A stretch of DNA of 64,000 nucleotides from Trichobilharzia szidati (taxonomy: Eukaryota > Platyhelminthes > Trematoda > Strigeidida > Schistosomatidae), in assembly GCA_944472155.2 (NCBI GenBank), contig OX235277.1, forward strand, positions 20,594,804 to 20,658,803, given 5' to 3'. Each line of letters starts with the position of its first letter. Position 1 is the first letter of the stretch. The notes under the pieces are model-generated. The model did no database searches. It had not been told where the DNA came from and was given only the letters and a program-made list of their open reading frames with translations. Of the stretch, positions 12,769-61,920 are shown piece by piece. Both the position numbers and the translations under genes were made by a program.

Positions 12769-12835
12769 ATGAAAGTTATACTGAGCCTGCTTTTCTGCTT
12801 GTTCATCATGGTGATTCACATTGGAGGTAACTCAG
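12769..12835 (+). CDS. exon 1: signal peptide exon of the MEG-like gene
   Basis: The ATG at 12769 opens 22 codons starting MKVILSLLFCLFIMV and ending HIGGNS, followed by a lone G before the donor CAG|GTAAG at 12836. This is a textbook secretory signal: one Lys, then a hydrophobic core of about 14 residues, then small and polar residues. The short length and phase-1 end match the first coding exon of schistosome MEGs, which is usually a conventional exon carrying just the signal sequence plus 5' UTR. The sequence runs on to stops soon after the donor, so the exon must be spliced. The start was chosen because it is the only ATG giving a signal peptide in frame with this donor. The transcription start is not visible; an AT-rich stretch sits about 50 nt upstream. 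Confidence 0.8.
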
Positions 12836-15800
12836 GTAAGTTCTGATGTTTTCTGGATTAACTTCTGATTGCATGAACAATTTTTTGTATAAATATTCAT
12901 CTTGATACCTATATCTTTTTGATGAATGAACCCATCGGCGGGAAGAATTCCCCTGTCACTGGTATTTACATGCAAGATTTTCGTATTATCAAAGGTCATA
13001 GTGCAATACAATAACGATTCATTAAAAACACATGAGTAAACTGGCAGAAACACTTAAAAGTGCAGATTACAATAAATGTTATAAATGAAGTGCCAAACTG
13101 GCGTGTTTAAGCATCAACTCTCGCTCAAAGTATAATGATATTTCAAATCCACACAATATATTTCGTCGGAAAATTTAGACAATAATTTGAGTTTGTGTGC
13201 TTTAACATTTCAACCTCATCTAACATTTAAAGGGACAGAAGATCAGTCTCTTTATTCATGGGTGCTCATTAAGGGTTAATCAGTCACAATTTAACTCAAA
13301 TTCCTGTGTCATGGACGATGAAGTGTGGTAAATGTGGAAGGCATTTTGTTGCATATATCGTCAAAAACGATTCTGTCGTCAACTAAAGTTAACTAAGATT
13401 ATTTATGTTTTCATTGTTATCAGTATAATAGTCCCATTAATGTATTGGAAATACAACTTTAAGAAGTATTTGAATAAAGTGGCTTCACAGTATTTCAGTG
13501 CGTTTCGAATTCTTCAGTAACACCATGTTTACTCTCACTATTGTTTCTCGAAGACCCGTTATATGGTTAATATGACTATTGCACATTGACTCATGTACAT
13601 CATACTGTGAGCTATAAGAACACATCGTTATTATAACATCATCATTTGATGGGTACAAATATTTTTTATGAACCTGTTTCAGGAAATAAAGAACAAGGTA
13701 TTTTATGTTCTTCAATTTACACACAGAGTTTTGATTTGGTTGGTGCGAAATTATCTAAAGCTTATTTTTCTGCGGATCATTACTAAGAAACTGCGTGAAT
13801 CGATGTCAGTGTTGCTTATGATTAACTGAAACGGCAATGACTATATTAGGAATGTCCATCATGATCGTTATTGTTTTAGGACACATCAGGTTGAGGAGAT
13901 GAGTATTTGGGCGGTGGTGGGTTGTCATTCAATGCTTTAACTCAACTTTGAGGAATTCCGGACCACTTAGTGTGTAGTTAAACTATAAAATCTGCCAGTA
14001 AGAAATTGTAGCATTCGTGACAATACCAATAAGAAATATATCCTAATGTTATAAATCCCCAGTAGTTCCAATCGTCTTAAAACTAGTCAAATCATTTCTT
14101 ACTATTTTTAGGAACTATGACATTTCATCATCTATTGAAAGAAGTCAAAATATGGTTGTCACATAAGAAGTCCTAGTGCACTTTGTAAGAATTATCCATT
14201 TCTGACATTCCCAGATATATGTTTATACTGTTGTCCTAATGAAGTGAGCAGTCAAACTCGAGAATTACAAACCACTACCTCCTGAATCAGTCTTTTATGT
14301 TTCAAGTAATCATCTTTTACAGTGAGCTCTTTAATAACACCTTTTGTGGCCTCTTTTCAAATCCTGCTACTTGTCGTTCACATTGTGAAAGTGTGGTAGG
14401 AGTTTCTTTCTTTGTGAATCTTCACTTGGGTCTATTTATAAACCTTAATCCAAGTAATATCGATCCGATCCTATGAGTAACTCATATGGAAAAATTAAGA
14501 CCATCAATATAGTCCGTTGTAATAACAGAAAATCATCAGGATGAATGAAAAATTACTTGCAGTTTGTCTTGACGTATCAACAAAAAAATTAGAAGGAAAA
14601 GTCTTTTGACCAAGCATACACGCGCTTTAACTTAACGCGTCCAGTTAATCTTCAATAATGAGTGGCGAATAAATCTGAGATAAAACCGTTAAACTAACAA
14701 GATCTTTCGAAGTCTTATCAGTCAGACGTATTTTTATCGGTGCTGAAACCAATATTGCCTTGTGTATACACCTTGAGTGCACACGCTTCATCCAATCTCC
14801 GAACCAATAAAATGCGCAGAAGTTAGCAAAGTCCTCCATTCTTATAGATTTCATCGAGAGCCTTCCAACTAATAATACATCGTTTCCCTGAATTATCAAG
14901 CCCCAGTTAAGTACTCATATCATCTATAAGAATTTTGATCGAGGCATTAGGAATGTTTTTCATTAATGTTAGCAGCTGTCTAAATAAATCCTATTGAAGT
15001 TTTAGTTTGTAGCGATTTGAATGATTGGTTACCGAATTTCATCATGAGCCAACATTGGTTAAAAAACAATTGGAAAACATCGGAGTACTGGACAGCTGTT
15101 TCGCCATAGTTTGAGACTCTCCATCACTACGCATCCACAAGGTTTGGAACCCAGGACCTTCTGTTTACAATGCAAGCCAATTCGTAGACCATTTAGCCAA
15201 TTCCCTTAATGACTATAGGGGACAGCTGACAAAGTAGTTAAATATTTCGAAGGCCCAAATCAATTCGGAATATTTCCATAGGTTCCTAGCTCTTTTTAGC
15301 GACACTAACAGCCCTCTTATGCATATATATATAATGCTAAAAGTCCACACCGTCTTCAGTGTGTTTGCTTCCATGGAAAGAAGTATTATCGGTATGACTG
15401 GCGTCCTAAAAGATTTTAGTTTCCCAAAACATAAAGTCTCTCCAAACTGAAAGAAAAATTGGTTTGATCGTTATAATTTCCTCGTGCTGTGAATTTTCTG
15501 TAAATGATAGGTTGTCGTTTTGGCAATCCTGACGCCCTCTCTGGCTGGAATTTATACTGACTACCGAAGTGGATGAAGGTTATTAACAACAGTAGTTATG
15601 TTGATATTACCACGTGAATGTATTGAAATACGTCCAAGTGATAATTCCAGGATATTAGGTGCATTCCGACTGCACAGAAATCGCTATTTTGCTTTGCTCA
15701 CTGCAAGCAAACGCCTAGTACATCAGTGATATCCCACCAATGCAAGACATCTTCGCCGATCGTCTGACGTCGAATAATTGTGTAGTGAGATTTATTATTG

Positions 15801-18800
15801 GAAGTGGTTTCGAAAAGAGTGTCATCATGGTCGTTTTAGAAATGTAAAATATTTTTCAAGTAAAATATAACTGGACCAACTGATGCTTCATCAAATAAGG
15901 CAAGACAAATTCATTCTACTGAAACTGTTCCTAATTTTCGTCTGAGGCAGTGTCATTTCAGCTATGAAAATGATCTACTTATCCTAAATGAGGAGAGATA
16001 GTTCACCAATTTCAAAATCTAGAAGTATTTAACATATAACATTCATTCTCAATGATTACGGAAATATAAATCCCAGACTTCCCTCAAGCCATTATACGCA
16101 GTGAAAAAAAGAAACATTTCTGACCATTTCTCGCTAAGAAATTTTTTTCATTCCTCATGTTTTTTATATATCTTCATCGTAATTGCTGATTTTATCCTGG
16201 TGACAGTATAAGGGAAGTGTCTGCATGGTGGGTTAAACATTAGTCAATAATGCCTAAAGAACTTCGTAGTTCCACAAGATATTCTGTCTCATTTCCATAA
16301 ACAAAATTGAGTGACATTCAGATTGCGTCTTCACAGTTTGAGGGGGTGTTATTAAATACAGTTACCTACATAGTCTAGTGTGAAAGAAAACAGTGATAGC
16401 GAGGTGTAGCTCCACAAAATACAAACATGAAGAATTCACTTTATTTCAAATGTTCTTTATTTTCTTCCGAAATAATATAATTAAAGTAATCACAATGATC
16501 TTTTTATACTAGATGAGAAGAGTAAGTCCAGTAGTTTGAATATCTAAGAGGTATGTTAATGTATTTCATACTTTCATAATCATTTTGGAAATGGGACTCC
16601 TAGTCTATCCTGAACACATTATTTGAGAAGATAAGTAAACACACAATTATTTACAACTGTATATTCTATTTTTGAGGTTTTATTCACCTTAATCAACACA
16701 TCATCGAATTTCTCCTTATCAACAGAATAGGAGACTTACTAGTTTGGTGTTTTTTCATCAGTAGATAATGGACATAGAGCATGATAGTTTTGACAGATAT
16801 TCTGTTCCTTTGTCGTAATCAGAAGTAAAGCCATTCAGGTGGTGTCTTCTTAGTTTACATCAATCACATTAAGTGAAGCTGCCTACATTACATTGTGTGG
16901 AGAAAAATAGCTAGGGATCCTTTAAATGCAGCAACTTAGATAAGTGCAGTATTAAATTTTGAATAAAATTACGAAGCAGTCTGCATATTAATTGATCGAC
17001 CACGACATATATTCGGAGAATTCTGTCTGCTACCATAGTAGCAGTATAGCCTGTAGCGAAATCACTTGTATTGTACCATAACTAATGTAAGGTCAAGGAG
17101 AATTGATCAAAATGAATGAGCACAACGTTAACTAAATATATGACGGAACCGCCTGTAGATGCTGAAGGTGTTTAAAGTTTAATGTTAACGAAGACGCATC
17201 TGACGAAGTGAGTAGGCCATTTAAGGCTTCTGTTTCCCGCTGATTGCACACACTCACTTTGTCGAAGTTAGTAGGTCAGCCACACAAAGCCGATTACTAC
17301 CAAACTTTATTCTCAGAATGTTCCAAATATTTTATTCTAGGTAAATAAGGCGCCCATGAGAATAAACTTGAACTCAACCGCTCCTTTTATTGGTGTTTTA
17401 ATATCTCTTCCCAACTATCATTTAGTGCTCTGTTTGTTGTATATATTCGAGATATTTTTGCATTGGTTGATATATTGTTGAGCTTCTCATGATCGAAAAC
17501 GTTAACACTTATTCTGTATTTATTTAAACCACGTGTTAGTATTTGGACTTGCGGAATTATATGTTTGCGTGTATACTACACTGTTATCAATATAAGGATG
17601 GTTTTAATTGTTTCACGTTCCATTTTAGCCCAATACATTTCTTAAGCAAAAGGAGATAATAGTGGGACAATCTGCTACTCAGGATGAGACGCTCGTTTAT
17701 ATAATCTGGGTAACGGTGAGTGTATAGGTAGAATGTGCATATTATTAGCGATAGAGGGGGAAATATTTACCATCAACTTGTGACTAGATAATTTAATAAT
17801 AATAGGTTAGAAAACCGAGACCACAATGTACACCTAGATCACAGCATAATATTGATAATACAGTTAGCAACACAAATAAAATAAAATATGACAAGATAGT
17901 ATTTACAGTTGTCCAGTGTTACCAGGAGAGATAACTATTTTGAGTTGGTGGCAAAGGCCAAGGTGCACACGGAAACTCAGCAGATAAACATCATCACGAC
18001 TGCTTCCTAATGCCTCAAACCCTTCAGTCAGTAAGGTTTATATTAAATCACTTTTCATGCCAAAAAAGCAAATGCATTACAGTCTGAATGACCTGGCTAG
18101 ATTATTGACATTTCAGTAAACCATTCAGAGAGTTCCCTCTCATTCCATTGTCTCTGACAGAGTCCTGGCATTTCTGTGCAATTTCATTTCCTTGGCAACC
18201 TAGATAGCCTACTAAGCTTTGTACATTGTACGGAAAATTCCATGTCATCATGCTTAGTTTTGTTTTCATCAAAAGAAGACATATCCGCTGATTGCTTCCT
18301 AAATGTTTCCAGCAGCCCATTTCATTCCGTTCCCATGATCAAGGCAAAAAAATAATTTCGCTGTTTATATTCTGTATTTGCCATTAAGTTTCTTTTGTTA
18401 TTCACCTGATTTTCTGAGGTAGATTTGATTTTTTCACGCCCTAGCCTCTTCTCAGAATTAAGTCTTTACTAACATTAGTTAATACGGGTAACACCAACTG
18501 GTTTCATAATATTGAAATATGTATCAGTTATTGTTTGAAGACATTAGCTCATTTTCCTATACACAGAACTGATTATTCGGTGTCTTACACCTGTGTTTTA
18601 ACCGTAGTGTCAGTGTCTGAGATACTCTCACCGAGAAGTGATTTTATTGTCAGTTTATATCAGTGGAATTGGTATTAAAAACAGCATCAACATAGTCCTT
18701 AGTTAATGTTAACCAGTTTTCAGGTAAAATTAATCACTGAGCATAGCTACCTAATACAACCAAAAAAATTCATTTTAGGAAACATGCTCCCAGTTTTCAA

Positions 18801-21800
18801 TCAAAATTGAAAAACTTGAGTTGATGTGCATATGTCATCATTTCTCACACGTAATGGAAAAGTGGCTCTTAGTCTTGCCTTGAAGCATATTCTGCAGACA
18901 AAGATGCATATTTATCAACATTATTCGTTGACAGATATTTAACTTTACAACCAAAGATAACACAATGCCCATGAGTTTTTGGGGTGGCATTTTCACACAG
19001 TCAAAACTCTTTCTTCATAAGAAAACAATAATTAGTTGAAAACAAAGGTTCTCAACATACATATGTTTTCCATTATGGGCTTAGTATTTCTGTGCTCAAG
19101 AGTATACTGACATGATATATGTAACCATGTTTCACAAATTGAAATCCGGCGTCCAGTGTCTATGTTTATAGATTAATCGTTCTGTGATGTATTTTGTTTG
19201 CATCAATGAAGAAAATATAAATGCAGCTTATTCACAGAGGTTAGATATTGGGCTGATGATGACAGATATGCTGTCGGTCAGCGTTTGAAAGGCCATTTTC
19301 TCGAAATCGTTTTGTGTATGTTAAGTACACACCCACTGACGGTCAGTAAATCGAATCAATCTTCAAGGAAACTCATATTTGATATCAATGAAATGGACTG
19401 TTTCAATGGTAAAGTTTGATAACCTGTCACTTCTGCTCATAAGTAGAATTTTGACGATATGCATGATCAAGGAGAGAATGGAACACTTCAGTACCTAAAC
19501 TCCCTCGGAGTACGTTTATTCGATAGGACAACAAGTGATGGTGTACAGAATGAAAAACTACGTTGTATTTTATATCAAAACGTTAGTGTTTTGCAGAATC
19601 GCCGTCTGACGCTTTTTCTGACACTTCATTTGTGAAACTTCATGCATTTATTCCCCTTGATGAATTTAAATAAAGCAAGAACAACAGTGGTTTGTGCAGA
19701 ATAATATGGTACCATCATTTACTTCGTCGGCTTCTCATCAGCTGCTTACAGCCTAAATAAATTGTGAGGTTTACGTACAGAAAAGTTTTAACTTTGTTCT
19801 TGCTTTATTTAAACTTCATTTGTGACAAAAGTTCTAGTTATTCATTGAAGACTTAGGCAATGTAGTAAAATGAATAGACTTTCATGGTGAATTCAGTGGA
19901 GTTTAATGTTTTCAACAGGAAGGGAATATAAATTTTCGATGACTTCCAATCAAGTATCACTCTTGTGACATTTGTTGTTAAATGACAACAGACTATGCAA
20001 TTTGAAATGATCATAATAATTTGCTTTATTCCAAAGAGTACTTGTGTCGGGTTGTGAAATTTCAGCATCTGGTACAATATTGCATCTAATTTTATCGAAT
20101 AACATTATTAACAGTTATAAAGATAACATTACTGGATTGTTAAATGTGGTTCTTACAAGGAGTGAATGGCTCATAATTTCATTCGTACATCCGAATGTAC
20201 ATATTTCGTACATCCAAGAAACACTGAATCATATGTTCAGTCACTTTATCAGAATCTTTTAGCACTGATGACATTTCTACTAAAGATTCGAAGTAATATT
20301 AAGAATCATATTTGAGTTGCTCATGGATAACTCATGTGCCATCACAAAGTCGAAATTCATATTCATTTTTAGGTCTGGATGAGTAATACTTCCAAAAGTT
20401 GAAATGTTCAAAAATGTATATGATGATGTCACAGTGTCTGTCTATTGAGATATATTTACATAGACTCAATATTTCCACTATGGGGATACTGATGAATAAT
20501 ATCTGTATTCGATGATCATATCAACAATACAACAATAACAATAATCGCTTCATTCTGAACAGTGTTCGTATGCTGTACAGAATTTTCATCGGAAATTATT
20601 GAGTAATGGTTTATTTTCTTTCATGGTTTCTATCATCTTCAAGCGAGATAGCATAGGTAAAACCATAAATTTAAGAAGAAAATTATGACGTATTCTGTAG
20701 ATCTATGAAGCCACCGAAATTATTATTTTAAGATTGGATACTAGTGATTTCGTACATGCACTTTTATTTTCATACTGACAAATTTTAGTGTGTGAAGGTG
20801 AGCATGACAAACAGTTCTGAATTTACAATTTAATCATATACTGATTTTCAAATGTTGGTCTCAGCATGAATCTATACGATCCACGGATAAGTCAGCTTTA
20901 AGAAGCCACAGATATATATTCATGCTGTTCCACCAGAATCGAGGACTTGTTCGTGAAATGGTCTTCTGTCTAAAGTTTCAATGAAACCATTTCCTAAACT
21001 GTGATGTTGTCACTTTGTGGTGTATCCATTCAAGAGAATTTCGTAATTCAGCCTATCGTGCATACCTGTTGCCTATATTCAGCTTTTCACACTGAAATTA
21101 TACACAAGACAGAATGAAGATAAATACGCCCAAACCATGTCACAGATAACTACCACAACTACGCCAAAGTAAAAGTCACATAAATTCAGCAGCATGAGTT
21201 AGAGGATGCCCCTCCCTTGATGTATAAAGCGTAATGTAACTCAATGAGATATTTTGTGTTTACGCAGAAGCAGTAGGTAAGTTGAAATGGAAACAGCAAT
21301 TTCTTTTCACAGTTTCAATAAACATGGTCATTCCAACCATGATTACGCAGACATTATGTTGTTGGGATAAGAAATCCTTAATTTACTGTGAGAAATCAGA
21401 GTTATGCTTTTACCAGTATCATAATCGATTCATGTATCATAGAAGATAATATCTTTAATGTATCCTCTTAACATCCTTTAAACGGCACTTTTCAATTTCT
21501 AATTCATTTATGAATTCATCAATGGATCAAAACTCATTCGGATTTCTTTATAATAAGCAAATCACCGGATAGTTAATAGTCTGTGGAATGATCAAACATA
21601 TCTTCAGCAACAAAGAAGATTTGTGGCCTAATCGGATGACCTTTTTGGTTTCACTGCCTTCTGCGCTTTCATATCATATCAGTTCGATGGGTAGATAGTT
21701 ATTGTTGATTTCATTTATTAAATCGGTGCAAGTAATCCAAATGATCAATTAGAATATATGTTCAGTTACGTATAATATATAAGAAACACAGGATCAGTCT

Positions 21801-54800: not shown

Positions 54801-57800
54801 CATTAATTTTGTGTGAAATACATTCATCTTCGTCTGCTTTGTCATTCTGAATGTGATTCTTGACGATTTTTATTGACATTTGATGTCACCTTAGTGAAGA
54901 AATGTAAGTCTGCACACCGTCTTTCGACTGAGAATCTACTCTTTGACACAGAATCTCTCAGATTTGTAAATAACATTGTTTAATATGATAACAAATATCT
55001 TTGTGAGATAACTGATTCGAGAATAACGCAGAATGAGTTAACGTTAACCCTGGTAATTAATATGTTTTCATGGTGAGGTGTATTTGCCTTCACTCACATA
55101 ATTTTTAAAATGCGATTAATAACCGGCCTCAAAAACACACTTTATCATTTAAGTTAAGGAGGGTAAGTGAATTTTAAAGTTTCTGAACTTGAATTTCTTG
55201 GATAGCTGCTTAATTTCTCCTGTTCATATTTAACATCAATTTGTAAAAACAGAGTTCTCACAGTTCCGCTTACTGAATGAAGTGTAAGAATACCGTATTT
55301 GCTACTGAAGTGAGGTCAAAATGCCCTATAACAATAACCTACGCTTTCCAAGCTTCATATTATCAATATTGCCTCATCTTATTTGTAGCCAAGGAGCCAA
55401 CGCCAACGAGTGAGTGAATAGTTTGATCGTTTAATTGATATGCCTACTTTCAGTTTTCACATTTACTTTATTCACAGGAGTCAACATCATCTCCAATATT
55501 TTCGCTTGAGCACCACGAATTCTTTCAAAAAATGTGCTAATATTGAAAAGACCCAAAATTAGATGATACCATGAAACGTGACACATGAACTGAGGTTGGC
55601 ATTTGCAGTTGTAGATGTCTAATCACAGCTCAGTTGAATCATATAGCAGATAAAATGATCAAGAGCTTGTTTAGATAAGGTGTCGAAATAGTATAAAGCA
55701 CTCGTCAATGATAAAAACCGTGAATTGATGGCTCTGAGAAAAGATGAAGGACAATCTTCGAATTCAAACTCCAGTTTACAGTTTTTTACAAGAGCAACAA
55801 TTGTGTTTTCAATTTAGACAGTGAGCGAATTCATGTACCTAATTCTGGAATTAATGAAACAGCCGAGATATCATCAAGGTTATTGGTGAGAGGTCAGTAA
55901 TAAAATATCAAATAGGTGAACCATTGAACAATTATTTTGCGATTAAAACCGTATCTGAATAGATGTAATACACACAAATGAATGAACGTAGAAACACACT
56001 TTCCAATACAGTAAGAAGAATGCATTTTGTAAATCAAAAATGGCATTAAGCCACAGGTTCGGAGAAACTGGATTTATTCATCTGCAACAATACGTCTAAG
56101 AAGGACATTGCTCTCTCATTGAGTGTGCCACTTGCTCAGATATCGGCCATCATCTTTTGATGGCCGCACTATGGAAGTTTTGCACTCCCATTCTGATAAC
56201 ATTTAATAATAGTTCACAAAATCATCGCCAAATTCAAATGTCATGTAAAATTCCCATTGTTACATATAGAAAAACAACACAAGTGATTCAGTGAAGAGAC
56301 TCTTTTCAATGGATTTATCTTGAAGCTGTACAATCGCATATATATATATATACATATATAGTTTTTTAAGAAGTTATATCCGGTGAGGGATTTGAATCAT
56401 AGGTGTGAATGCATAAAATAATAGTATGAAATATAGTTAAAATGAAAATGTTTGTGATTACAATCGCAGTTTAATGTCAAGTGCTATACAATAATGTCAT
56501 ATATAGAATAATTCATAGAATGGTTAGAACTTGAAATAAGTGTGCAATTATAGGATTAGTAGACAAATGGAAAAGAGATAAAAGCGTTTCGTCATATTGT
56601 GTGAAATTTGACATCATAGAATTTATCGATGTAGAAAAGAATTGATTTAAAATTACAGGTGACATAATATTGGGGACAGTTCAATGTATGTTCGGGTTAC
56701 ATTGAAATGGAACACCAACAAGTCGCCTACACAATCTGCACATGATTGAGATATATTTTGATAGTAATTTGTAGTAAGCTTGGAATAAATCTGAACAAAA
56801 CTTTGTAAAAAACAAATAGGAGTCAGAAATGAAACTAAAAATGCCTCATTGATTTCCTGAGTATTGCAAATGTTTCGCAAGTGATGCTTCCAATGAATAA
56901 TTCTTGTGATCTTGTTTAGAATAACCCTTGTTCTGCTTCAGTTATTCAACACTAACTAAACCACACTTTTCTACTCCCAGCATATTATACTTCTCAATAT
57001 AAATTGTGGATTGTATAGCGTACATATTTATGCAAACGTCATGATTGAGATTGTGTAACGAAAAGTTCACCTGATGAAATCGAGTGAAATTTAGCCAGTA
57101 CTGAGAAAAAGGGGCAATTGAATCACTTGTAGTATACTGCATTATATATTCCGTCAGTGTTTGAATGCACAATGTGAACATTGGGATGTAAAAATCGCTG
57201 CGCATCACTAATATTGCGAATTTCGTGGTGTCTACTTAGTAGGTAAAGCACAAGTAACTAGTGAAATTAGTGGGTCAGTGATAGTGAATTACACACTTTC
57301 TACCTCTCATGACACCAATTTCTCAAGGCATTGTTGACGTCCAAAGGCATAAGCCCTAAAAAACAGTGATCACTGGATCTTACGTTTCAAAACTGACAAA
57401 ACCTCCAGACATCTAGCTAATTTACATTCGATTAATATGAGTCAGTTCAGGTATCATCTGCTGATATTATTAAATCACTTATATCATCATGGAAAAACCA
57501 AGCTTAAAACAAATGCAAAAATATAAAGTTAAGCTAATGAATATATGAATGTACGTCAGAAATCAGAGCAGATGTCTGAAATTCAAACAACGTTTGTCTA
57601 CATTATGGGTCTTTCATGATGAAGCCAATTGACATCATCAGTTAATAGCTCATAGTTAAGGCAGCGTGACACTGCCCCTTTGAGAAACACAGAAAGAGAA
57701 ATAACTGAAAGAAATGACATGGTAGGTATAAACACATTCAATGCAAAAAAATTCTTTCCACATATTTGCAGTAAATCTTATCTCGCTCCACACAAAAATT

Positions 57801-60800
57801 TTCAAAATTCCAGGTACCATTACACTGCCCAATGGGAAACGTAAGTCTGACATAAAGATATATGTCATTTACTGAAGCCACGAAATCAATCTCTCTAGAC
57901 AATAACATTTAAGGAAATTGAATTCGACTCCAATACCATAGTTAATTATATGTAGAAAATTATTCAACTTCATAGTAATACAAGATTCCACATTAATTCC
58001 TTATTGTATATGAAACAGAAGTAAACAATACTACACAATGCATGATGTTGTTTCATTGTGTGATACATTCACTGAGTAAATAGTTGTACAACCGCATCTT
58101 AGATGTGTTTTATAAGCCTAACAAATTAATTGAAGTAAAGTTACCTCAATATAATGTCAAACGAAAAGTATCCAAACAACCACATAAACGTTCCCATGCA
58201 TGTTTGGTGTCAATTATTATATATAAGTATTGGGCAGGGAAATAATACCACGAAAATACAATTGCATAGTTCAAAGTTTTAGATTAAAAGCTGCGTTAAA
58301 GTAATATTTACTAGATACCCATAATTTTATCGAAATAACTGATAGAACTGAGTGTTCAAGTTCCCTCTAGAATGAAACAGCTCCTCGAAATACTCATATT
58401 TAGGCTGAAATAGAATTTTAAGTAGCATATTTCCTCCCGTATGTATTTCACTGCTCTGAAATCCAATGATAAATGTTCTAGGGTTAAACCCTACTAATAT
58501 AAAGAATCAAGCAGGACTAAAACAGGAATCTGTGATCATACGTTTTTATAGACTGAAATGAACATGCATGTCAAATAATATTCTTTTGTCGAATAAACAC
58601 TCATGAACTGATAATCTGCTCAGTAATAGTTTCGTTATTTCCAGAAATAACTTGTCGCAATGACCCCTGAAGCAGTTGATGTGGTAGGTTGTTTCGTTAC
58701 ACATAATGAAAGATTTGGGTTGTACGCAATGAACATTTACACGACGAAGTGAATATCCTTGAGTGATTTACAATTTCGATTATCCATGTTGACGATACCT
58801 GTCACATTCATGTATCACTGTGTAACGTATTACAAAAATGAAAACTGTCTGATGCTCCCTGACATTCTACATCACATCCTGGATAATGTTTTGCCAAGTT
58901 GCGTGACAGCTTCATCACTGTCTTCAACAAATATTTGATAAAATGCCAACAATCAAGTATCGAAACAGAAAGTTTTTTTAATGCATTCTTCTTCAACCAT
59001 ATTCACGCGTATTATTGAATATCACGGCTTCTTCTTTAATATACGTTAAATTTATGCCTTTTTGTATCACAATTAAGGTTTTTCAGTCACAGAGTTGTGA
59101 TCAAGAGTCTAGGTAAATAATTGGTGACTTCATTATAAAAAGAGAAATTGGGAACAACAGTTCACTGGAGGATAATTTGAGTTATTGTAATGCAATATGA
59201 ATGGCGACAAACATAAGTCTATTTATCAGGTGAAATTCTCACATTCATATTTGTATAACTATGGTTACAACTTTTTGTACTGATCCTTCAAAATATTCGG
59301 ATTTGTCTTTTAGGTCACGGGAAGGACGATCTCTAACAATAAAATTACCACTAAATTTTTCACAAACTCAAATGATAATTGATCTACACTGACATTTTCT
59401 GGTTCATTAAATGTGTGAATCTTATGTTTTCCGCTCATACTAAAATTCCTGTCTAAATTCTCTTTACACATTTTTAATTTGTTTGTGTTAATAATGTCAT
59501 AACGAAATAAATGCAAATTATTTTAACAGACGAATGTGCATTTTTTATCATGGATTTGGACATCCAATAAATCTCTCGCATTAAAGCTGGCTGTTATTGA
59601 AATCAGTTGTTAATTAATAACTCTGCTTCGGACGAAAAGAAAAGCGACAATGTGAAATAAATCTCGCTGATGAATTAGTTTTCGCAGACGTTGATAACTG
59701 AAATTGAAATAATAGCAGTGATTGATGGTTGATGGTTGAAAGGAAACGCATTGAATTCATTGGAAAATCGCATAATTTTACTTCATTCAGGAAGGAACGA
59801 ACATTTACTCACTTGTTGTTGTCTACGAAATGTTGATGTTGCCTGTTATCCTGGAAAATCATTTTGAAGTTGGGAATCTGAGTCTCTTTCCGCCTGCTAC
59901 TAGTCAATACAATGTTTATATATTTTAGTGTCCGTCGCAACCTTCAGTGTAGCTTAAAACTATGTTTTCTTCTATGAGGCCTATATCTCTCTTCTTGAGG
60001 CGTAATTCTGTTAAGCCAACTTCAAGTTGATTCACGTTTGTAGTTGGATACCAGTGGCAACAATTAGTGGTGCTAACTAGCCAGGACAAAGTGACTTATG
60101 AACTGTACGGCCGTTTCGCTCACTTAGATCCTAGAGCATTTAAGTTGCAATATATGTATTTAGAGTTCAGTGCATGACAAATTGTCTATGTGAGTTCAAG
60201 CGCTAGAATACTTGAAAAATTCAACAAAAACTGATGACGAAGAGGTTCGAAACGTAGGTGCTTCATTGTGTACTCGACTATACAAGATTCAACAGTGATT
60301 TCGTGGATTCTGAAGTTCCATCGTTGAAGTGTTCGTAAATTCAGAATTGTTTTTCAGCAAGTAGGATTGTCATGCGTCACACAACAACAAATATTATTGA
60401 CGAAGAACAGCAGAAAACGCCAGCAAATTCTGAAATGAAAGTGGGAGTCCTGAAAAGAGAATTCAGTGAAGACATTTTGCTTAGAACCATTGTTGTTTCA
60501 TGTCAAATACTCGTAGTAGGTTTTCTCGATTTCAGTTACTTGTAAGATATAGTGTTTAGAAGGAATAATGAGTGAAATTCAAACTTAAGACACTGAAGTA
60601 AAACCAATCATGTACACAACCTATAATTTAGGCTATAAAACATGACAACCAGTGGTTTCAGAAATTTTGAACATGATATTCTATCCTAGCAATATAAAAC
60701 AGCCTTTCAACTCGATGGAATATTTGGATTAAATCATTTATGACAAAAAAGACAGAAAATATCACAATCAGGTAATCCGGCAGTTATTCAGTCTAAAAGC

Positions 60801-61801
60801 ATCTCCAGTACGAAATGAGTACTGTACAACTGGATTAACTGAGAAATTTTTATTACCTGAGGACACAATTTGAAGCATTCTCGAGGCGGTACAGAGGTTA
60901 GGACTCGAATAGATGTTTGCCTATTAAGCCATTAAGCCAATTAGACTAGATATAATGGTCGTGACCAGTGCGCAACAGCAGGTCATGTGTGAGGACAAAT
61001 ACCCTCCAGGTATGACATTAGTTGGAATTCATGAACCATTGGATCGGATTCCAGTAGCCTAATGCCCTACCAGCTCACCTGATAACCAGAAAGTCCTGGG
61101 TTTAAACTTCAGTAGATGAGTATTGTGAATAGTCGGAAACTTAGACGAACCAGCTGTCAAGTACTGCCAGGTATGTCGATGATCTAAATCGATGTCAGCT
61201 GATGATGAAATCCTGCACCTCATCAAGTTCCTGCAAACCAATACTTGAATATATTTCTAAAGCTTTATTCCAAACCGTAGAGTACGTCGCCGTAATTTAT
61301 TCGTTTTCTGTTGTCTATATCCTGATAATGGTAACTTCTCATTCATTGATTTGCTTAATTCTGTGACTGTTTTCCAGTGATACTCATGATATTATTAACA
61401 TAATATTGATTTCATTGGTGTTCCATTTTGTGAAATGAATAATAATTATAGTAAATTCGTCATTTACTGAGTGGCATTCATCTTTCTCGGTGAGTATTTG
61501 ATCACGGTTCTATGAAACACATACTTCAGCACTTTATTGATCAGTTTGTATATTTTTCTCTGACTGACGATTTCAATTTGTACTGAAATTTTCTTTGACT
61601 AGAAAAATATTTCATCTGATAAACGCATGGACACTGAGAGGCAGAATTCATTGGTTACAATTACTGCATGCTTTCAAACTATGTGTAGTAGTAGTATTTG
61701 CAACCCCTGTGGCTGAGACTGACTTTAGTAAATATTATGCTGCCCATTATTACGTCAAATATAATTATGACCCTTCAGCTAATGATAATGTAGAGGAATA
61801 A
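12769..61801 (+). CDS. putative giant micro-exon gene (MEG-like secreted protein), whole span
   Basis: Overall gene model. A signal-peptide exon (12769-12835) ends in phase 1, a terminal exon (from 61689 or 61695, to 61801) begins in phase 1, and between them lie about 25 well-supported and several weaker micro-exons of 6-30 nt. All are multiples of three, phase 1 at both ends, and on the + strand. No in-frame stop arises inside the main-chain exons or at the split codons when they are joined in order. In schistosomes MEGs are defined by this layout: conventional 5' and 3' exons around many symmetric exons of at most 36 nt. They encode small secreted proteins whose variants arise by exon skipping. 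The predicted protein is about 156-193 residues, with a signal peptide, a charged Glu/Lys/Asp/Gln-rich middle, a hydrophobic stretch, and a Tyr-rich acidic tail. I do not recognise it as a numbered MEG family. One gene is inferred; two adjacent genes are possible. Confidence 0.6.
13683..13697 (+). CDS. micro-exon, 15 nt
   Basis: Acceptor AACCTGTTTCAG, exon GAAATAAAGAACAAG, donor AAG|GTATTT. In phase 1 it reads G-N-K-E-Q with the G carried over from exon 1. The acceptor is good, the donor fair. It lies 847 nt after exon 1 and is the first plausible cassette downstream. Frames 0 and 2 are less natural; frame 0 contains TAA. Confidence 0.6.
15005..15215 (+). repeat. dispersed repeat family F, copy 2 (with tRNA-like segment)
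   Basis: Contains TGATTGGTTACCGAATTTCA, GGAAAACATCGGAGTACTGG and ACAGCTGTTTCG, matching copy 1. The distal part (15140-15205, - strand) reads TGGCTAAATGGTCTACGAATTGG, then GGGTTCCAAACC, resembling boxes A and B. Confidence 0.62.
16513..16521 (+). CDS. micro-exon, 9 nt
   Basis: Acceptor CTTTTTATACTAG, exon ATGAGAAGA, donor GTAAGT (full consensus). It adds D-E-K when the codon is completed by the previous exon's final G. It is one of the strongest donor and acceptor pairs in the series. Confidence 0.65.
19665..19813. repeat. inverted repeat, 20-bp perfect arms
   Basis: TTTAAATAAAGCAAGAACAA at 19665-19684 is the exact reverse complement of 19794-19813, with a 109-bp loop. A nearby direct repeat ACTTCATTTGTGA (19623, 19814) adds to the symmetry. 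It could be a small MITE-like element or a remnant of a larger palindrome. Confidence 0.5.
20789..20797 (+). CDS. micro-exon, 9 nt (paired with 29743)
   Basis: Acceptor ACAAATTTTAG, exon TGTGTGAAG, donor GTGAGC. In phase 1 it reads (x)TG-TGT-GAA-G, giving M/V-C-E. The duplicate at 29743 keeps the exon length, the core GTGTGAA, the donor GTGAGC and both splice borders, while the surrounding intron has diverged strongly. This is good evidence of selection. The Cys is one of few in the predicted mature protein. Confidence 0.72.
21268..21276 (+). CDS. micro-exon, 9 nt (paired with 30216)
   Basis: Acceptor TTGTGTTTACGCAG, exon AAGCAGTAG, donor GTAAGTTGAAAT. Read in phase 1 it gives E-A-V; the apparent TAG is not in frame. 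The duplicate at 30216 has the same length, borders and following TTGAAAT, with the exon changed to D/N-A-L. Confidence 0.72.
   Translation, partial: KQ
22444..22452 (+). CDS. micro-exon, 9 nt (paired with 31027)
   Basis: Acceptor GGTCTTATTTTTAG, exon AGAAAGCAT, donor GTAAGG. Phase 1 gives E-K-A. It is the third matched cassette of the 9-kb duplication: the copy at 31027 keeps the nearby TTTCTCYTTCAT upstream and GTAAGGAG donor context downstream. Confidence 0.7.
22970..23955 (+). mobile_element. Penelope-like retroelement fragment (RT palm to endonuclease), decayed
   Basis: Conceptual translation, with frameshifts, gives E-P-I-L-A-D-I-V-F-G-Y-L-E (an RT palm segment), then Y-Y/H-Y-R-R-Y-I-D-D-M-F-V-V (catalytic YIDD at about 23084-23095), then D-C-L-N-E-I-H-P-N. 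Further on come E-R-R-E-R-I-A-S and S-E-H-I-P at 23720-23760, the region of the GIY-YIG type endonuclease of Penelope-like elements. The order RT then endonuclease and these motifs are typical of that class, known from schistosomes. At least two frameshifts and several stops (for example after 23250 and near 23465) make it non-functional. The N-terminal part is missing. It sits in an intron in the same direction as the MEG. Confidence 0.8.
24098..24270 (-). mobile_element. tRNA-derived SINE-like element
   Basis: The - strand has GGCCTGAGTGCTCTAGTGGATAA with a box A-like segment, then box B GGGTTCGAAACTC near 24190, in tRNA-like spacing. It is followed by a non-tRNA body with GGGACTCGTC on the + strand. 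It is a different family from the 7.8-kb copy. It lies right after the Penelope-like fragment. Confidence 0.65.
24809..24817 (+). CDS. micro-exon, 9 nt
   Basis: Acceptor GTCCTCACAACTTTAG, exon CGAGATATA, donor GTGAGA. Phase 1 reads S-R-Y, with S formed across the junction from the T ending the previous exon. Both sites are good. No duplicate was found, and the exon lies between the SINE at 24.1 kb and the next unit. Confidence 0.6.
25968..25979 (+). CDS. candidate micro-exon, 12 nt
   Basis: Acceptor TTTTTATTACTGCTGTAATAG, exon CTGACCTGAGGG, donor GTATGT. Phase 1 gives T-D-L-R; other phases differ and frame 0 contains TGA. The acceptor is reasonable and the donor is good, but there is no duplicate to support it. 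Confidence 0.42.
26898..26927 (+). CDS. candidate micro-exon, 30 nt
   Basis: Acceptor CTAAACGCTACAG, donor CAT|GTGAGT. In phase 1 the 30 nt read D-R-E-I-I-E-L-S-F-P without a stop. The donor is excellent and the acceptor tract mediocre. It would be the longest internal cassette, still within the MEG size class. Confidence 0.38.
28603..28611 (+). CDS. micro-exon, 9 nt
   Basis: Acceptor ATTTTCATCTTAG, exon TTGAGGGGC, donor GTAAGT. Phase 1 reads F/I-E-G. Both sites are strong. It lies about 1.1 kb before the first exon of duplication copy B; I found no equivalent in front of copy A. Confidence 0.63.
29743..29751 (+). CDS. micro-exon, 9 nt (paired with 20789)
   Basis: Acceptor TACTTGATTTCAG, exon AGTGTGAAA, donor GTGAGC. 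Phase 1 gives Q/E-C-E, keeping the Cys-Glu of its duplicate. The last base changes from G to A and the first from T to A, so the split codons change while the middle codons stay. Confidence 0.72.
30216..30224 (+). CDS. micro-exon, 9 nt (paired with 21268)
   Basis: Acceptor TATTGTTCTTTGCAG, exon ATGCATTGA, donor GTGAGT. Phase 1 gives N-A-L; the terminal TGA is not in frame. The borders correspond base for base with the copy-A exon at 21268. Confidence 0.72.
   Translation: MH
31027..31035 (+). CDS. micro-exon, 9 nt (paired with 22444)
   Basis: Acceptor TATCCCGACGTTTAG, exon AAGATATGA, donor GTAAGG. Phase 1 reads K-D-M. It is at the position of the copy-A exon 22444 and keeps the donor context GTAAGGAG. 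Confidence 0.68.
   Translation, partial: KI
32622..32928 (-). repeat. left arm of perfect 307-bp inverted repeat (Penelope 3' end)
   Basis: The reverse complement of this segment is identical, base for base by eye, to 34287-34593. It contains the last endonuclease codons and 3' UTR of the - strand Penelope-like element. Weaker similarity continues about 40 bp on the inner side. Confidence 0.9.
32622..34030 (-). mobile_element. Penelope-like retroelement, 5'-truncated, - strand
   Basis: Reading the - strand from 34025: E-T-M-V-S-F-D-I-T-S-L-Y-T-Y-I-P-I (RT motif A), then G-S-P-I-S-L-I-V-A-D-I-F near 33790 (motif B), then W-W-R-Y-M-D-D-T-Y near 33680 (motif C), and L-H-T-S-V-H-K-K-P-T-N near 33520. 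Near 33100 comes I-I-Y-K-I-P-C-D-D-C, the start of the GIY-YIG type endonuclease. It then enters the 307-bp repeat at 32928-32622. Several frameshifts and stops interrupt it and the RT fingers are absent. Gene order and motifs fit Penelope-like elements, whose copies are often 5'-truncated and flanked by direct or inverted pseudo-LTRs. Confidence 0.82.
34287..34593 (+). repeat. right arm of perfect 307-bp inverted repeat
   Basis: A + strand copy of the element's 3' end, so the two tails point outward. The arm is preceded by related endonuclease sequence (L-E-K-A-Q-R-S-L) from about 34240. The 1358-bp spacer holds the RT and endonuclease body. Perfect identity beside a decayed reading frame suggests a recent copy or gene conversion between the arms. 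Confidence 0.9.
35150..35164 (+). CDS. candidate micro-exon, 15 nt
   Basis: Acceptor GGCATTACTATAG, exon TTCGGCTTCTAGATC, donor GTGAGA. Phase 1 reads I-R-L-L-D; the internal TAG is out of frame. The polypyrimidine tract is weak, so this may be chance. It is not counted in the main chain. Confidence 0.3.
35240..35284 (+). CDS. candidate exon, 45 nt
   Basis: Acceptor CACCAATTCTTATAG, donor TCAT|GTGAGT. The 45 nt stay open in phase 1 and give a hydrophobic peptide beginning A/P-M-F-W-Q-Q. It is longer than the usual MEG limit of 36 nt and is not counted in the main chain. It lies in a 115-codon open stretch that could equally be chance. Confidence 0.3.
35471..35482 (+). CDS. micro-exon, 12 nt
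   Basis: Acceptor TGCTTCTCCTCTGCAG is among the best polypyrimidine tracts in the window. Exon TTCAGCAAGAAA, donor GTGAGT. Phase 1 gives I-Q-Q-E. A second possible acceptor lies 5 nt inside the exon but would break the reading frame. Confidence 0.68.
36090..36098 (+). CDS. micro-exon, 9 nt
   Basis: Acceptor ATTGTTTGACTGAATCAG, exon GTGATAAAG, donor GTATGT. Phase 1 gives S/G-D-K. The sites are good; there is no recognised duplicate. Confidence 0.6.
37520..37528 (+). CDS. candidate micro-exon, 9 nt
   Basis: Acceptor GTCAAAATTCCCAG, exon CAAATCTGG, donor GTATTG. Phase 1 reads A-N-L. The donor resembles the GTATTT of the first micro-exon at 13683 but is not strong. Confidence 0.42.
38312..38320 (+). 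CDS. micro-exon, 9 nt
   Basis: Acceptor TTTCGATATTTTAG, exon GAAGACTGT, donor GTGAGT. Phase 1 gives G-R-L. Both sites are near consensus. It lies just upstream of the third Penelope-like fragment. Confidence 0.65.
38446..38895 (-). mobile_element. Penelope-like endonuclease fragment, - strand
   Basis: The - strand reads I-F-K-F-T-Y-N-C-G-D-T-Y-T-G-R-T-N-R-M (the GIY-YIG core, usually ..C.xxYIGxTxR), then after a frameshift N-P-N-E-I-H-S-N-R-N-P-S-S and I-A-K-H-L, then H-N-C-H-S-R-L-A-K-A-K-E-A. This is the C-terminal endonuclease of a Penelope-like element, of a different subfamily from the 33-kb copy judging by the residues. RT is absent and at least one frameshift is present. Confidence 0.75.
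38450..38622 (-). repeat. left arm of imperfect inverted repeat (Penelope 3' end)
   Basis: The reverse complement aligns with 38968-39140 at roughly 85-90 per cent over about 170 bp. It covers the last endonuclease codons (V-Q-N-T-I-V-F-N-L) and the 3' UTR with TTTATTTCATTATTGTGAAC. Confidence 0.75.
38968..39140 (+). repeat. right arm of imperfect inverted repeat (Penelope 3' end)
   Basis: Plus-strand tail copy facing away from the left arm, with 345 bp between them. The arrangement is the same as at 32.6-34.6 kb, but older. Confidence 0.75.
39889..39897 (+). CDS. micro-exon, 9 nt
   Basis: Acceptor CATTTTGGACACCGCAG, exon TGAAAACAT, donor GTGAGA. Phase 1 reads L-K-T, the L being formed from the T that ends the preceding exon. 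Confidence 0.57.
40426..40431 (+). CDS. micro-exon, 6 nt
   Basis: Acceptor ATTCTTTTTTAATAG, exon ATCCAA, donor GTGAGT. It adds two residues (Y-P with the preceding T). Six-nucleotide exons are the smallest reported for schistosome MEGs, and this one has two strong flanking sites. Confidence 0.57.
40432..43243 (+). other. intron with possible degenerate element at 42.1-42.5 kb
   Basis: 42120-42480 is richer in G+C than its surroundings. On the - strand it has a patchy open frame with segments such as F-G-R-Y-D-R-E and K-V-A-T-A-T-K-K-I-V. It looks like a decayed mobile-element coding region, but I cannot name the family. The rest is ordinary intron. Confidence 0.35.
43244..43252 (+). CDS. micro-exon, 9 nt
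   Basis: Acceptor TTAATTTTCTTTTATTTAG (excellent), exon CGCAATTTT, donor GTGAGT. Phase 1 gives T-Q-F. Together with 44143 it has the best combined splice sites of the series. Confidence 0.7.
44143..44151 (+). CDS. micro-exon, 9 nt
   Basis: Acceptor CATATTTTCTTATTTAG, exon TGGATAGAC, donor GTGAGT. Phase 1 gives L-D-R. It resembles the 43244 exon in its sites (pyrimidine-TTATTTAG, 9 nt, GTGAGT), so an old local duplication is possible. Confidence 0.7.
46437..46445 (+). CDS. candidate micro-exon, 9 nt (possible copy of 51005)
   Basis: Acceptor GAAGACAAATCAG, exon ACATCTCGT, donor GTAAGA. Phase 1 reads H-I-S. The tract before the AG is purine-rich, a weakness, but the position fits the unit copied at 51005. 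If it is used, the next exon must be 46998, because joining directly to 48243 would make TAA. Confidence 0.42.
46998..47018 (+). CDS. candidate micro-exon, 21 nt
   Basis: Acceptor CATACGCCAACTTCCAG (good), donor GGA|GTATAA (fair). Phase 1 reads C/G-F-S-N-E-T-R with no stop. It lies 561 nt after candidate 46437, close to the 625 and 667 nt spacing of the exon pairs in later unit copies. Confidence 0.42.
48243..48251 (+). CDS. micro-exon, 9 nt (unit copy 1)
   Basis: Acceptor CTCTCTTCGTTAATGCAG, exon AATATAGCA, donor GTATGT. Phase 1 reads K/Q-Y-S. It is equivalent to 49330 and 51005 in the later copies. The 49330 duplicate uses the same donor GTATGT. Confidence 0.68.
48868..48882 (+). CDS. candidate micro-exon, 15 nt (matches 49997)
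   Basis: Acceptor GTGTACTTTCTCCTAG is strong, but the donor GG|GTTACA is weak. Phase 1 reads I-C-T-H-M. It is supported by position: it lies 625 nt after 48243, and exon 49997 lies 667 nt after 49330 in the next copy. It may be a decaying cassette. Confidence 0.38.
49330..49338 (+). CDS. micro-exon, 9 nt (unit copy 2)
   Basis: Acceptor CTTGCTTCCCTAATCCAG, exon AAGAGTTTG, donor GTATGT. Phase 1 gives E/K-E-F. It keeps the TTTCATTTCACTAAT leader and GTATGT donor of copy 1 while all three codons differ. Confidence 0.7.
49997..50005 (+). CDS. micro-exon, 9 nt (unit copy 2, second cassette)
   Basis: Acceptor ATATTGTCTCATTCAG, exon GCACCATGA, donor GTAAGT. Phase 1 reads G-T-M. Both sites are near consensus. 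Confidence 0.67.
   Translation, partial: AP
50950..51760 (+). repeat. exon-carrying unit, copy 3
   Basis: Third copy of the unit. It shares the GAATACT...TTTCAGG tract with copies 1 and 2, and the CCCCATAATAATAAAAGATAT tract with 46.8 kb. The first cassette (51005) is intact. At the second cassette position there is an acceptor (51750, GATGATATTTTAG), but no GT follows at 9 nt. Confidence 0.6.
51005..51013 (+). CDS. micro-exon, 9 nt (unit copy 3)
   Basis: Acceptor ACTCTTTTCAATCCAG, exon ATGAGGAAG, donor GTGAGT. Phase 1 gives N-E-E. The acceptor end AATCCAG matches the copy-2 exon. Confidence 0.7.
52670..52675 (+). CDS. candidate micro-exon, 6 nt
   Basis: Acceptor GCATCAACTGAACAG with a T-rich tract further upstream, exon ATCTGA, donor GTATGT. 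Phase 1 adds D-L. It is plausible but short enough to occur by chance. Confidence 0.4.
   Translation: M
53430..53653 (-). CDS. orphan conventional exon on the opposite strand
   Basis: On the - strand an acceptor (ATTTCACTATCAATCAAG, AG at 53655-53654) is followed by about 224 nt of open frame and then the donor CTTG|GTAATT at 53429. The reading begins R-A-Y-L-D-E-V-D-D-G-L-M-G-M and later has L-F-P-A-L-Y-V-D-M-H and N-F-R-L-L-N-D-F-Y. Composition is richer in G+C and looks like helical, conserved protein, unlike the surrounding intron. Stops follow right after the donor, and the frame is not open in front of the acceptor. I do not recognise the protein. It could be one exon of a nested antisense gene, or an exon copied in by genomic duplication. 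Confidence 0.5.
54202..54210 (+). CDS. candidate micro-exon, 9 nt
   Basis: Acceptor GTATTTCTTGTTTTCAG is excellent. Exon AAATATATC, donor GTTAGT, non-ideal at +3 but good at +5 and +6. Phase 1 gives K/E-I-Y. Confidence 0.42.
54431..54664 (+). repeat. tandem duplication, two units of about 115 bp
   Basis: 54431-54550 and 54551-54664 align throughout: CATAAG-TTACT / CATAAGTAAGGTAACT, TATTTAATAAATGAACAT / ATTAAATAAATGACATT, TTTGGAAGAAAAC / TTTGGAAGGAAAC. The units are diverged. No exon was found inside. Confidence 0.6.
54895..54903 (+). CDS. micro-exon, 9 nt
   Basis: Acceptor TTTGATGTCACCTTAG, exon TGAAGAAAT, donor GTAAGT. Phase 1 reads L/V-K-K. The donor is full consensus. Confidence 0.65.
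55154..55162 (+). CDS. micro-exon, 9 nt
   Basis: Acceptor CACTTTATCATTTAAG, exon TTAAGGAGG, donor GTAAGT. Phase 1 gives F-K-E, the F using the T that ends the previous exon. It lies only 250 nt after 54895, and both encode x-K-(K/E), so the two may be local duplicates. Confidence 0.63.
55389..55409 (+). CDS. micro-exon, 21 nt
   Basis: Acceptor CATCTTATTTGTAG, donor ACGA|GTGAGT. In phase 1 the 21 nt encode A-K-E-P-T-P-T, a Pro/Thr-rich segment of the kind often seen in MEG proteins and a possible O-glycosylation site. G+C content is clearly above the flanking intron. This is one of the most convincing exons because of its length. Confidence 0.72.
56337..56362 (+). repeat. TA-rich simple repeat
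   Basis: About 26 bp of (TA)n with one interruption, directly before the acceptor of the 56371 micro-exon. Similar runs lie at 29708-29720, 32150-32181 and 37674-37690. Confidence 0.8.
56371..56382 (+). CDS. micro-exon, 12 nt
   Basis: Acceptor TATATAGTTTTTTAAG, just after a TA-rich simple repeat. Exon AAGTTATATCCG, donor GTGAGG. Phase 1 reads K/E-V-I-S. Confidence 0.52.
57814..57840 (+). CDS. micro-exon, 27 nt
   Basis: Acceptor TTTCAAAATTCCAG, donor AAAC|GTAAGT (full consensus). In phase 1 it encodes G-T-I-T-L-P-N-G-K. It is the longest well-supported internal cassette, open in phase 1. Frame 0 is also open, so the phase-1 call rests on the whole series. Confidence 0.72.
57841..60535 (+). 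other. long intron without supported exons
   Basis: AT-rich. The one cassette with good splice sites (58645-58683, 39 nt) has a stop in all three frames. No mobile element is recognised. Confidence 0.45.
60536..60541 (+). CDS. micro-exon, 6 nt
   Basis: Acceptor GTTTTCTCGATTTCAG, exon TTACTT, donor GTAAGA. It adds L-T. With the next exon it forms a hydrophobic run (L-T-L-A-F-I-F-L). Confidence 0.55.
61020..61250 (-). repeat. dispersed repeat family F, copy 3
   Basis: The reverse complement has TTCAAGTATTGGTTTGCAGG (copy 1: TTCAAGTGTTGGTTTGTAGG), then GATTTCATCATCAGCTGACAT and GGCAGTACTTGACAGCTGGTT in the same order as copies 1 and 2. Sequence from 60880 to 61020 may be a continuation. It lies in the last long intron of the MEG. 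Confidence 0.6.
61472..61489 (+). CDS. micro-exon, 18 nt, hydrophobic
   Basis: Acceptor CGTCATTTACTGAG, exon TGGCATTCATCTTTCTCG, donor GTGAGT. Phase 1 gives L-A-F-I-F-L. The acceptor is only fair (purine before AG), the donor is consensus. The hydrophobic sequence continues in the terminal exon. Confidence 0.58.
61689..61801 (+). CDS. terminal coding exon of the MEG-like gene
   Basis: Three tandem AGs (61688, 61691, 61694) are possible acceptors. All keep phase 1 and differ only by one or two Val codons. The frame runs V-F-A-T-P-V-A-E-T-D-F-S-K-Y-Y-A-A-H and on through a Tyr-rich acidic tail to N-V-E-E and TAA at 61799. The codon bias and the long open frame to a natural stop fit the conventional 3' exon of a MEG. 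The stop is overlapped by an AATAAA. The better-looking acceptor upstream (TTTCTTTGACTAG at 61602) is in the wrong phase and hits TGA at once. Confidence 0.65.
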
Positions 61802-61802
61802 A
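61797..61802 (+). terminator. AATAAA overlapping the stop codon
   Basis: A canonical poly(A) hexamer spans the TAA stop. If used, the 3' UTR would be only about 20 nt; the copy at 62148 is the more usual choice. Confidence 0.35.
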
Positions 61803-61900
61803 TGTCAGGAAAATCCCTATCAATCAATTCATTTGTAGTATGGCTACTCACTAAAATATTTCTACTGGAATGCGTAATTATCACGTAATGCGTAATATCA

Positions 61901-61920
61901 CCGACCGACCGACCGACCGA
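61901..61920 (+). repeat. tetranucleotide microsatellite (CCGA)5
   Basis: Five perfect CCGA units in otherwise AT-rich sequence, flanked by similar AATTATCAC words on both sides (61877 and 61920). Confidence 0.85.

Follow-up and report, generated by a model that had tools for sequence, protein, structure and literature searches.

A predicted chain of 38 exons on the + strand of Trichobilharzia szidati DNA very probably represents one copy of an undescribed multigene family of micro-exon genes (MEGs), in which a constant frame holds about 25 diversifying three-residue slots and most cassettes are usually included. The DNA analyzed is a stretch of 64,000 nt (C7:20594804-20658803; here called the window) from a 1.11-Gb assembly with 907 contigs. 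The chain runs from 12769 to 61801, about 49,000 nt, and its exons add up to 573 nt and 190 residues. An exon of 67 nt is followed by 36 exons of 3 to 30 nt, 24 of them 9 nt long, and then by an exon of 113 nt. The terminal stop is the one in-frame stop. The introns have a median length of 857 nt, and the longest is 4435 nt.

The first-pass annotation had described a gene of about 49 kb with 25 to 33 cassettes, mostly of 9 nt. Its length and 9-nt majority stand, whereas the count is now 36 internal exons. It had also expected one open frame of about 156 to 193 residues, which fits the 190 predicted here, and the four joins it singled out (12835 to 13683, 20797 to 21268, 57840 to 60536, and 61489 to about 61689) all occur in the predicted chain. 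The predicted exons are listed below in window positions.

12769..12835, +, exon 1, signal peptide, 22 codons plus 1 nt; region in 27 copies at 87-100%, window included
13683..13697, +, 15-nt exon; the four aligned copies retain the sites, mean score 7.7
14307..14321, +, 15-nt exon, invariant in five sequences; mean score 14.8
16513..16521, +, 9-nt cassette; mean score 14.5
20789..20797, +, 9-nt cassette; mean score 10.6
21268..21276, +, 9-nt cassette; mean score 17.1
22444..22452, +, 9-nt cassette; in copy B the acceptor is unaligned
24809..24817, +, 9-nt cassette, highly variable; mean score 12.4, 44% divergence
27637..27642, +, 6-nt cassette; mean score 18.2
28226..28243, +, 18-nt cassette; mean score 12.7
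28603..28611, +, 9-nt cassette, highly variable; mean score 14.4, 56% divergence
29743..29751, +, 9-nt cassette; mean score 14.7
30216..30224, +, 9-nt cassette, variable; mean score 18.4, 16 cluster copies by pattern search
31027..31035, +, 9-nt cassette, highly variable; mean score 12.2
35471..35482, +, 12-nt cassette; mean score 18.1
36090..36098, +, 9-nt cassette; mean score 10.2
37622..37630, +, 9-nt cassette, no differences among the four sequences compared; mean score 14.9
38312..38320, +, 9-nt cassette; mean score 14.7
39889..39897, +, 9-nt cassette; mean score 13.3
40426..40431, +, 6-nt cassette; mean score 16.7
43244..43252, +, 9-nt cassette, variable; mean score 18.9
44143..44151, +, 9-nt cassette; mean score 16.8
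46095..46103, +, 9-nt cassette; mean score 13.2
48243..48251, +, 9-nt cassette, highly variable; mean score 14.2, 25 cluster copies with 16 distinct 9-mers
49330..49338, +, 9-nt cassette; mean score 11.8
49997..50005, +, 9-nt cassette; mean score 17.0
51005..51013, +, 9-nt cassette; mean score 18.0
54202..54210, +, 9-nt cassette, variable; mean score 18.2
54895..54903, +, 9-nt cassette; mean score 12.9
55154..55162, +, 9-nt cassette; mean score 11.9
55389..55409, +, 21-nt exon; mean score 16.9
55818..55820, +, probable 3-nt exon, invariant; mean score 14.0
56374..56382, +, 9-nt cassette (12-nt form from 56371 possible); mean score 9.8
57240..57269, +, 30-nt exon; mean score 12.5, kept in one further copy
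57814..57840, +, 27-nt exon; mean score 15.4
60536..60541, +, 6-nt cassette; donor lost in one of eight loci, window included
61472..61489, +, 18-nt exon, weak acceptor; all 10 loci, including the window, retain AG and GT
61689..61801, +, terminal exon, Tyr-rich; all 10 loci, including the window, retain the frame

We judged exon 1 by eye to encode a signal peptide, with a charged start and a hydrophobic core. The signal peptide is similar, and the frame preserved, in all nine exon-1 loci read (window included). In the Tyr-rich terminal exon, an AATAAA overlaps the stop codon. Acceptors at 61689, 61692, and 61695 are all possible for this exon, and in one subfamily the acceptor region is altered, each form still having an AG that enters phase 1 (by eye). 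We regard 13683-13697, 22444, the 3-nt exon at 55818, 56374, 60536, and 61472 as the less certain predicted members of the chain.

Splice sites, phase, and exon order

Cassettes were scored with generic metazoan splice weights, which came from general knowledge rather than from a fit to the window. In the interval bounded by exon 1 and the terminal exon, AG-N9-GT reached a score of at least 10 in 22 places on the + strand and 3 on the − strand, and ten order-2 Markov control sequences averaged 3.6. Other cassette lengths from 2 to 40 nt averaged 4.0 on the + strand at score 10 (maximum, 9), close to background. At score 8, the largest class of a length other than 9 was 30 nt, with 15 on the + strand and 7 on the − strand. 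The + strand flanks (1-12768 and 61802-64000) had no candidates at score 10, or one upstream if only intron positions were scored. We dropped one of the 22, 51695-51703, because it is not conserved in paralogs, and also 27216, 40971, and 26936, the sites of which are lost in at least one copy.

For lengths of 3 to 36 nt and with no frame filter, we also averaged the scores across the window and five paralog stretches (A, B, C, D1, and D2). At a cut-off of 12, the + strand then had 28 cassettes, 18 of them 9 nt long, and the − strand had none; lengths of 3 to 60 nt likewise gave 28 and 0. Looser cut-offs diluted the signal, giving 38 and 9 (cut-off 10) or 45 and 16 (cut-off 9). For 9-nt candidates, the AG, the GT, and their spacing were kept in 45 of 49 copy comparisons at scores of at least 12, in 15 of 15 at 10 to 12, in 14 of 20 at 8 to 10, and in 42-56% below 8. 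In 27 chosen cassettes, changed splice bases numbered 0 of 156 and 0 of 158 with gapped cells uncounted, zeros that are partly by choice because these cassettes were picked after their conservation had been seen.

In the cut-off-12 set, a stop codon occurred in any aligned copy of 14 of 28 exons in phase 0 and 14 of 28 in phase 2, but in none of the 28 in phase 1. Exons with stops in phases 0, 1, and 2 numbered 16, 1, and 22 of 38 at a cut-off of 10 and 17, 4, and 25 of 45 at a cut-off of 9. The 27 chosen cassettes have 93 distinct alleles, with stop codons at 24 of 274, 0 of 181, and 35 of 181 in the three phases, whereas composition predicts 16.3 stop codons in phase 1. Cassette 48243, read in 25 copies, had stops in 1, 0, and 13 of them.

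Each exon boundary splits a codon, so that an exon ending in T creates a stop if the next one starts with AA, AG, or GA. We counted such junctions in the window and copies A, B, and C, with exon 1 in all four and the terminal exon in the window only. Neighbors in the chain gave a stop at 0 of 136 junctions (0 of 71 distinct), in keeping with the earlier claim that the split codons of the main chain are free of stops. Shuffled exon orders gave a mean of 10.0, and none of 5000 reached 0. Junctions between non-neighbors gave stops in 5.3-13.5% at 13 other spacings. The cut-off-12 set behaved in the same way (0 of 111 for neighbors, versus 5.6-13.5% at six other spacings), and looser cut-offs gave 1 of 142 (cut-off 10) and 2 of 167 (cut-off 9). 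Therefore, these exons have evolved as neighbors, in chain order. When one exon was skipped, stops arose in 7 of 132 cells (6 of 77 distinct). Junctions made by skipping are thus incompletely protected, an argument for the usual inclusion of most cassettes. Four sites that we left outside the chain (32475, 42154, 42693, and 45522) are possible exons and give no junction stops, whereas 26898 and 37293 would add one each.

Related copies on C7 and C3

The 201-base exon-1 region has 35 matches in the genome, 27 of them at 87-100% identity (window included). These 27 close copies comprise 26 within about 4 Mb of C7 (19.60-23.55 Mb, window included) and 1 on C3 at 29.00 Mb. Searches with the terminal-exon region gave 32 match rows, which we merged into 28 places on C7 and a single one on C3. 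For 20 of the 26 C7 copies of exon 1, a terminal exon lies on the same strand 29-66 kb downstream with no exon 1 between. Controls of 2000 each gave a mean of 10.4 such pairs when strands were shuffled (maximum, 17) and 5.8 with random places (maximum, 12). In the C3 copy, the terminal exon is 63 kb downstream of exon 1.

Two cassettes were followed across the genome by their splice flanks. The pattern for 48243 had 79 matches, versus 52 for the reversed-pattern control, and we kept the 25 in the cluster; that for 30216 had 28 versus 2, and we kept 16. Cassette 48243 was found at 24 C7 cluster places, 23 of them inside a same-strand copy and the 24th at 19 kb before an unpaired terminal exon. 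All 15 C7 cluster places of cassette 30216 are inside a same-strand copy, and the C3 copy has one more match for each cassette. Landmark order was as in the window in 23 of 23 C7 copies with at least two of the three landmarks. Alignment covered most of neighbors A, B, and C and parts of a fourth, D, and all four are colinear with the window in blocks of 71-95% identity. The terminal exon is absent from copy A and partly absent from copy D. A signal-peptide exon, phase-1 cassettes all on one strand, and a Tyr-rich terminal exon, as first proposed for this gene, are supported by splice-site conservation, phase-1 openness, split-codon adjacency, and replication in paralogs.

The copy nearest to the window is not the same one throughout the gene: at 12-18 kb it is B, at 97% identity, but at 45-57 kb both A and C are nearer than B. 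Six other places match the terminal-exon region at 98-99% identity, and most others do so at 74-81%. This shifting nearest copy and the uneven terminal-exon identity suggest exchange among copies.

Some units are partial. Six of the 26 C7 exon-1 copies have no terminal exon within 70 kb (19604453, 19696249, 20334413, 21172498, 22185955, and 22394781), and several terminal exons without an exon 1, e.g., 21119790 and 20908081, are partial copies. The other eight matches to the exon-1 region are weaker (69-73%) and may be older relatives of the gene family; they lie at C3:93255114, C593:15862, C3:115980638, C6:74770956, C3:126882137, C3:126556538, C3:27053729, and C472:236123.

Other elements are present in the window and its copies. 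A type I hammerhead ribozyme (50.2 bits) lies in an intron on the − strand at 24103-24147. Schistosome Sm-alpha elements carry such ribozymes. An inverted repeat of 344 nt (32616-32959 and 34256-34599), with arms 97% complementary and 1296 nt apart, is possibly an intronic transposable element. Copy C has an insertion of about 19 kb between the equivalents of window positions 24906 and 25576, with an open frame of 912 residues, which we take to be a non-LTR retrotransposon, and a second frame, presumably Penelope-like. Among the best 120 of 534 matches, the nearest proteins to a retrotransposon frame in copy B are those of Schistosoma, Trichobilharzia, and Heterobilharzia; the best identity is 75% over nearly full length, and T. 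regenti proteins reach 81-85% over part. This frame is 57% identical to one T. szidati protein among the matches listed. Sm-alpha elements are reported to have been tested for enrichment in MEG regions (PMC4350168).

Divergence of cassettes and introns

Groups for the divergence comparison were set after divergence had been seen, with 61472 and the terminal exon in no group. On that footing, the framing exons (exon 1, 13683, 14307, 55389, 57240, and 57814) have 46 differences in 700 sites, or 6.6%, versus 10.6% in their flanks (0.62-fold). The 23 nine-base cassettes differ at 168 of 684 sites, or 24.6%, versus 14.5% in theirs (1.70-fold). Four other cassettes, among them the variable 18-nt exon 28226, differ at 38 of 125 sites, with flanks at 19.0%.

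For the window against copy A, pN was 0.233, pS 0.193, and intron divergence 0.142; the corresponding values were 0.211, 0.155, and 0.157 against B and 0.205, 0.141, and 0.139 against C. Most of the cassette change is amino-acid replacement: silent changes in B and C are near the intron rate, and replacements exceed it. Ratios of replacement to intron divergence were 1.77 (1.09-2.67) for A, 1.41 (0.84-2.16) for B, and 1.56 (1.06-2.28) for C. The 5′ part of D gave 1.53 (0-2.97) from 6 cassettes, an interval that includes 1, and the 3′ part gave 0.69 (0.29-1.31) from 7 cassettes, which is below 1. An elevated replacement rate, one of the MEG criteria, was thus found against A, B, and C, with an interval that includes 1 for B and a ratio below 1 for the 3′ part of D.

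Known systems and the reading of the family

Cys-Tyr-Cys motifs are a feature of aphid bicycle genes. These genes average about 17 exons, and megacycle genes have more than 100 micro-exons, one having 118 exons in about 100 kb (PMC9168663). The family described here resembles them in its many one-phase micro-exons, and both are rapidly evolving putative effectors. However, they are insect genes with no evidence of homology to this family, and we ruled out an insect bicycle gene by the organism, which is a schistosomatid and not an aphid.

Published MEG criteria are at least seven exons, at least half of them below 70 nt and divisible by 3, and a run of at least four (PMC7653826). In the predicted chain, 36 of 38 exons are of 3-30 nt, divisible by 3, and consecutive; a signal peptide is in the first coding exon (by eye, nine of nine loci); and the exons are symmetric and frame keeping (phase-1 stops in 0 of 28, neighbor stops at 0 of 111). 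The schistosome-MEG architecture seen in the first-pass annotation therefore agrees with published structural criteria. For S. mansoni, 35 MEGs are described, with 10-20 exons each, the vast majority of 15 bp, and the longest protein listed has 189 residues (PMC10526429). Those genes share with this one a signal peptide, short symmetric exons, long introns, variable secreted proteins, and gene clusters. It differs from them in its predicted exon count of about 38, with 24 exons of 9 nt, and in the 27 copies of this one family. The predicted number of three-codon exons, already suspected to be extreme, is indeed beyond that description of S. mansoni MEGs, whereas MEG clusters and high dN/dS in schistosome MEGs were already known (for the latter, PMC4350168). 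Chromosome 6 of Hymenolepis microstoma has a tandem cluster of 10 MEGs in about 0.43 Mb that, as here, shares a common signal-peptide motif (PMC7653826); the T. szidati cluster differs in having 26 exon-1 copies in about 4 Mb and a different motif. Schistosome VAL-6 has a part with MEG-like small symmetric exons, and a group 2 VAL has 38 exons (PMC4350168), but VAL-6 is a VAL gene, whereas neither end exon here, when searched, had a match in Pfam.

MEG transcripts are known from T. regenti and from T. szidati, the same species as this gene family, and their proteins are proposed to function in blood processing (PMC6362228). The ten T. szidati transcripts were found by BLASTp to GenBank reference MEGs. 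We found no relative of the X-padded end exons in 5.8 billion proteins, including those of Trichobilharzia and Schistosoma, when three shared 5-mers were required, and no PDB match for the terminal exon. None of the published titles and abstract openings surveyed, mostly without full texts, points to such a family. Because three shared 5-mers are needed and the protein is short and fast, the protein-search miss is weak evidence for novelty. The suggestion that the protein may be undescribed therefore holds within these insensitive searches.

Could the cassettes be chance AG-N9-GT matches picked by eye in AT-rich intron sequence? Low-score matches are common (49 on the + strand and 27 on the − strand at score 4), but 28 against none at a cut-off of 12, with no phase-1 stop, makes this vanishingly improbable, and we rejected it. 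It is also very unlikely, in our judgment, that exon 1, the array, and the terminal exon belong to at least two transcripts or that further or alternative 3′ exons lie beyond 61801. In favor of such an arrangement, some copies lack the terminal exon or have a truncated one, and 61802-64000 plus the next 10 kb, about 12 kb in all, has six 9-nt candidates on the + strand at scores of at least 8, five of them at 10 or more, versus two on the − strand. However, exon 1 and the terminal exon are paired on the same strand, phase-1 entry is possible (by eye) even where the terminal acceptor region is altered, three of the six sites are in a repeat (about 67542-69549), and 65578 is in a stretch that copy A lacks. 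In copy A, the splice sites of 72021-72029 are retained, with one internal change, and 72417 is outside copy A coverage. All six are open in phase 1, but with one stop each in phases 0 and 2 this openness says little. These downstream sites speak against a sharp 3′ end, although copy A mostly does not support them; the terminal exon, 61689-61801, is a candidate 3′ end of the array.

Relaxed constraint or decaying copies, rather than diversifying selection, might make the cassettes fast, as the partial copies and the several replacement/intron intervals that include 1 would allow. We think this quite unlikely, since relaxed exons should approach the intron rate and not exceed it (24.6% versus 14.5%); moreover, the cut-off-12 set has no phase-1 or neighbor-junction stops, and cassette length is kept. 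A classical use of MEGs, with diversity mainly from exon skipping, many isoforms per copy, and copy number secondary, is unlikely but deserves more weight. Symmetric cassettes let the frame survive skipping, and skipping is a published hallmark of MEGs (PMC4350168; PMC7653826). The stops created by one-exon skips, which true neighbors lack, make frequent skipping less likely, although their 5.3% is the lowest among the other spacings.

We therefore favor a multigene MEG family with most cassettes usually included. The chain would be transcribed and spliced mostly in full, giving a secreted protein of about 190 residues in which the ends are short and constant and about 25 slots have three residues each. 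Duplication of entire 50-60 kb units, together with selection on the slots, would then produce many related but differing secreted proteins. The simplest source of this selection might be pressure from the vertebrate (bird) host, or from its blood cells, where they meet the surface, gland, or gut of the parasite. This suggestion draws on knowledge of other MEGs, among them the T. szidati MEG transcripts that are strongly upregulated in schistosomules (PMC6362228).

More tentatively, and at less than even chances, the family might be a hypervariable display system, with a fixed frame, about 25 exon-defined three-residue slots, fixed length and splice sites, and 27 loci that exchange sequence. 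If so, the micro-exon would be a unit of evolutionary variation and not mainly an optional splicing cassette, and intron-flanked three-codon units could change or recombine with their neighbors undisturbed. Exon skipping is the answer usually given to why flatworm parasites make secreted proteins from micro-exons. Cassettes that are mostly of three codons, with protected neighbors and, in the copies compared, faster-than-intron change, make the alternative, a unit of diversification, directly testable. The split-codon adjacency test may also be useful for MEGs generally, because it finds and orders exons below the size that RNA-seq aligners handle, from paralogs alone.
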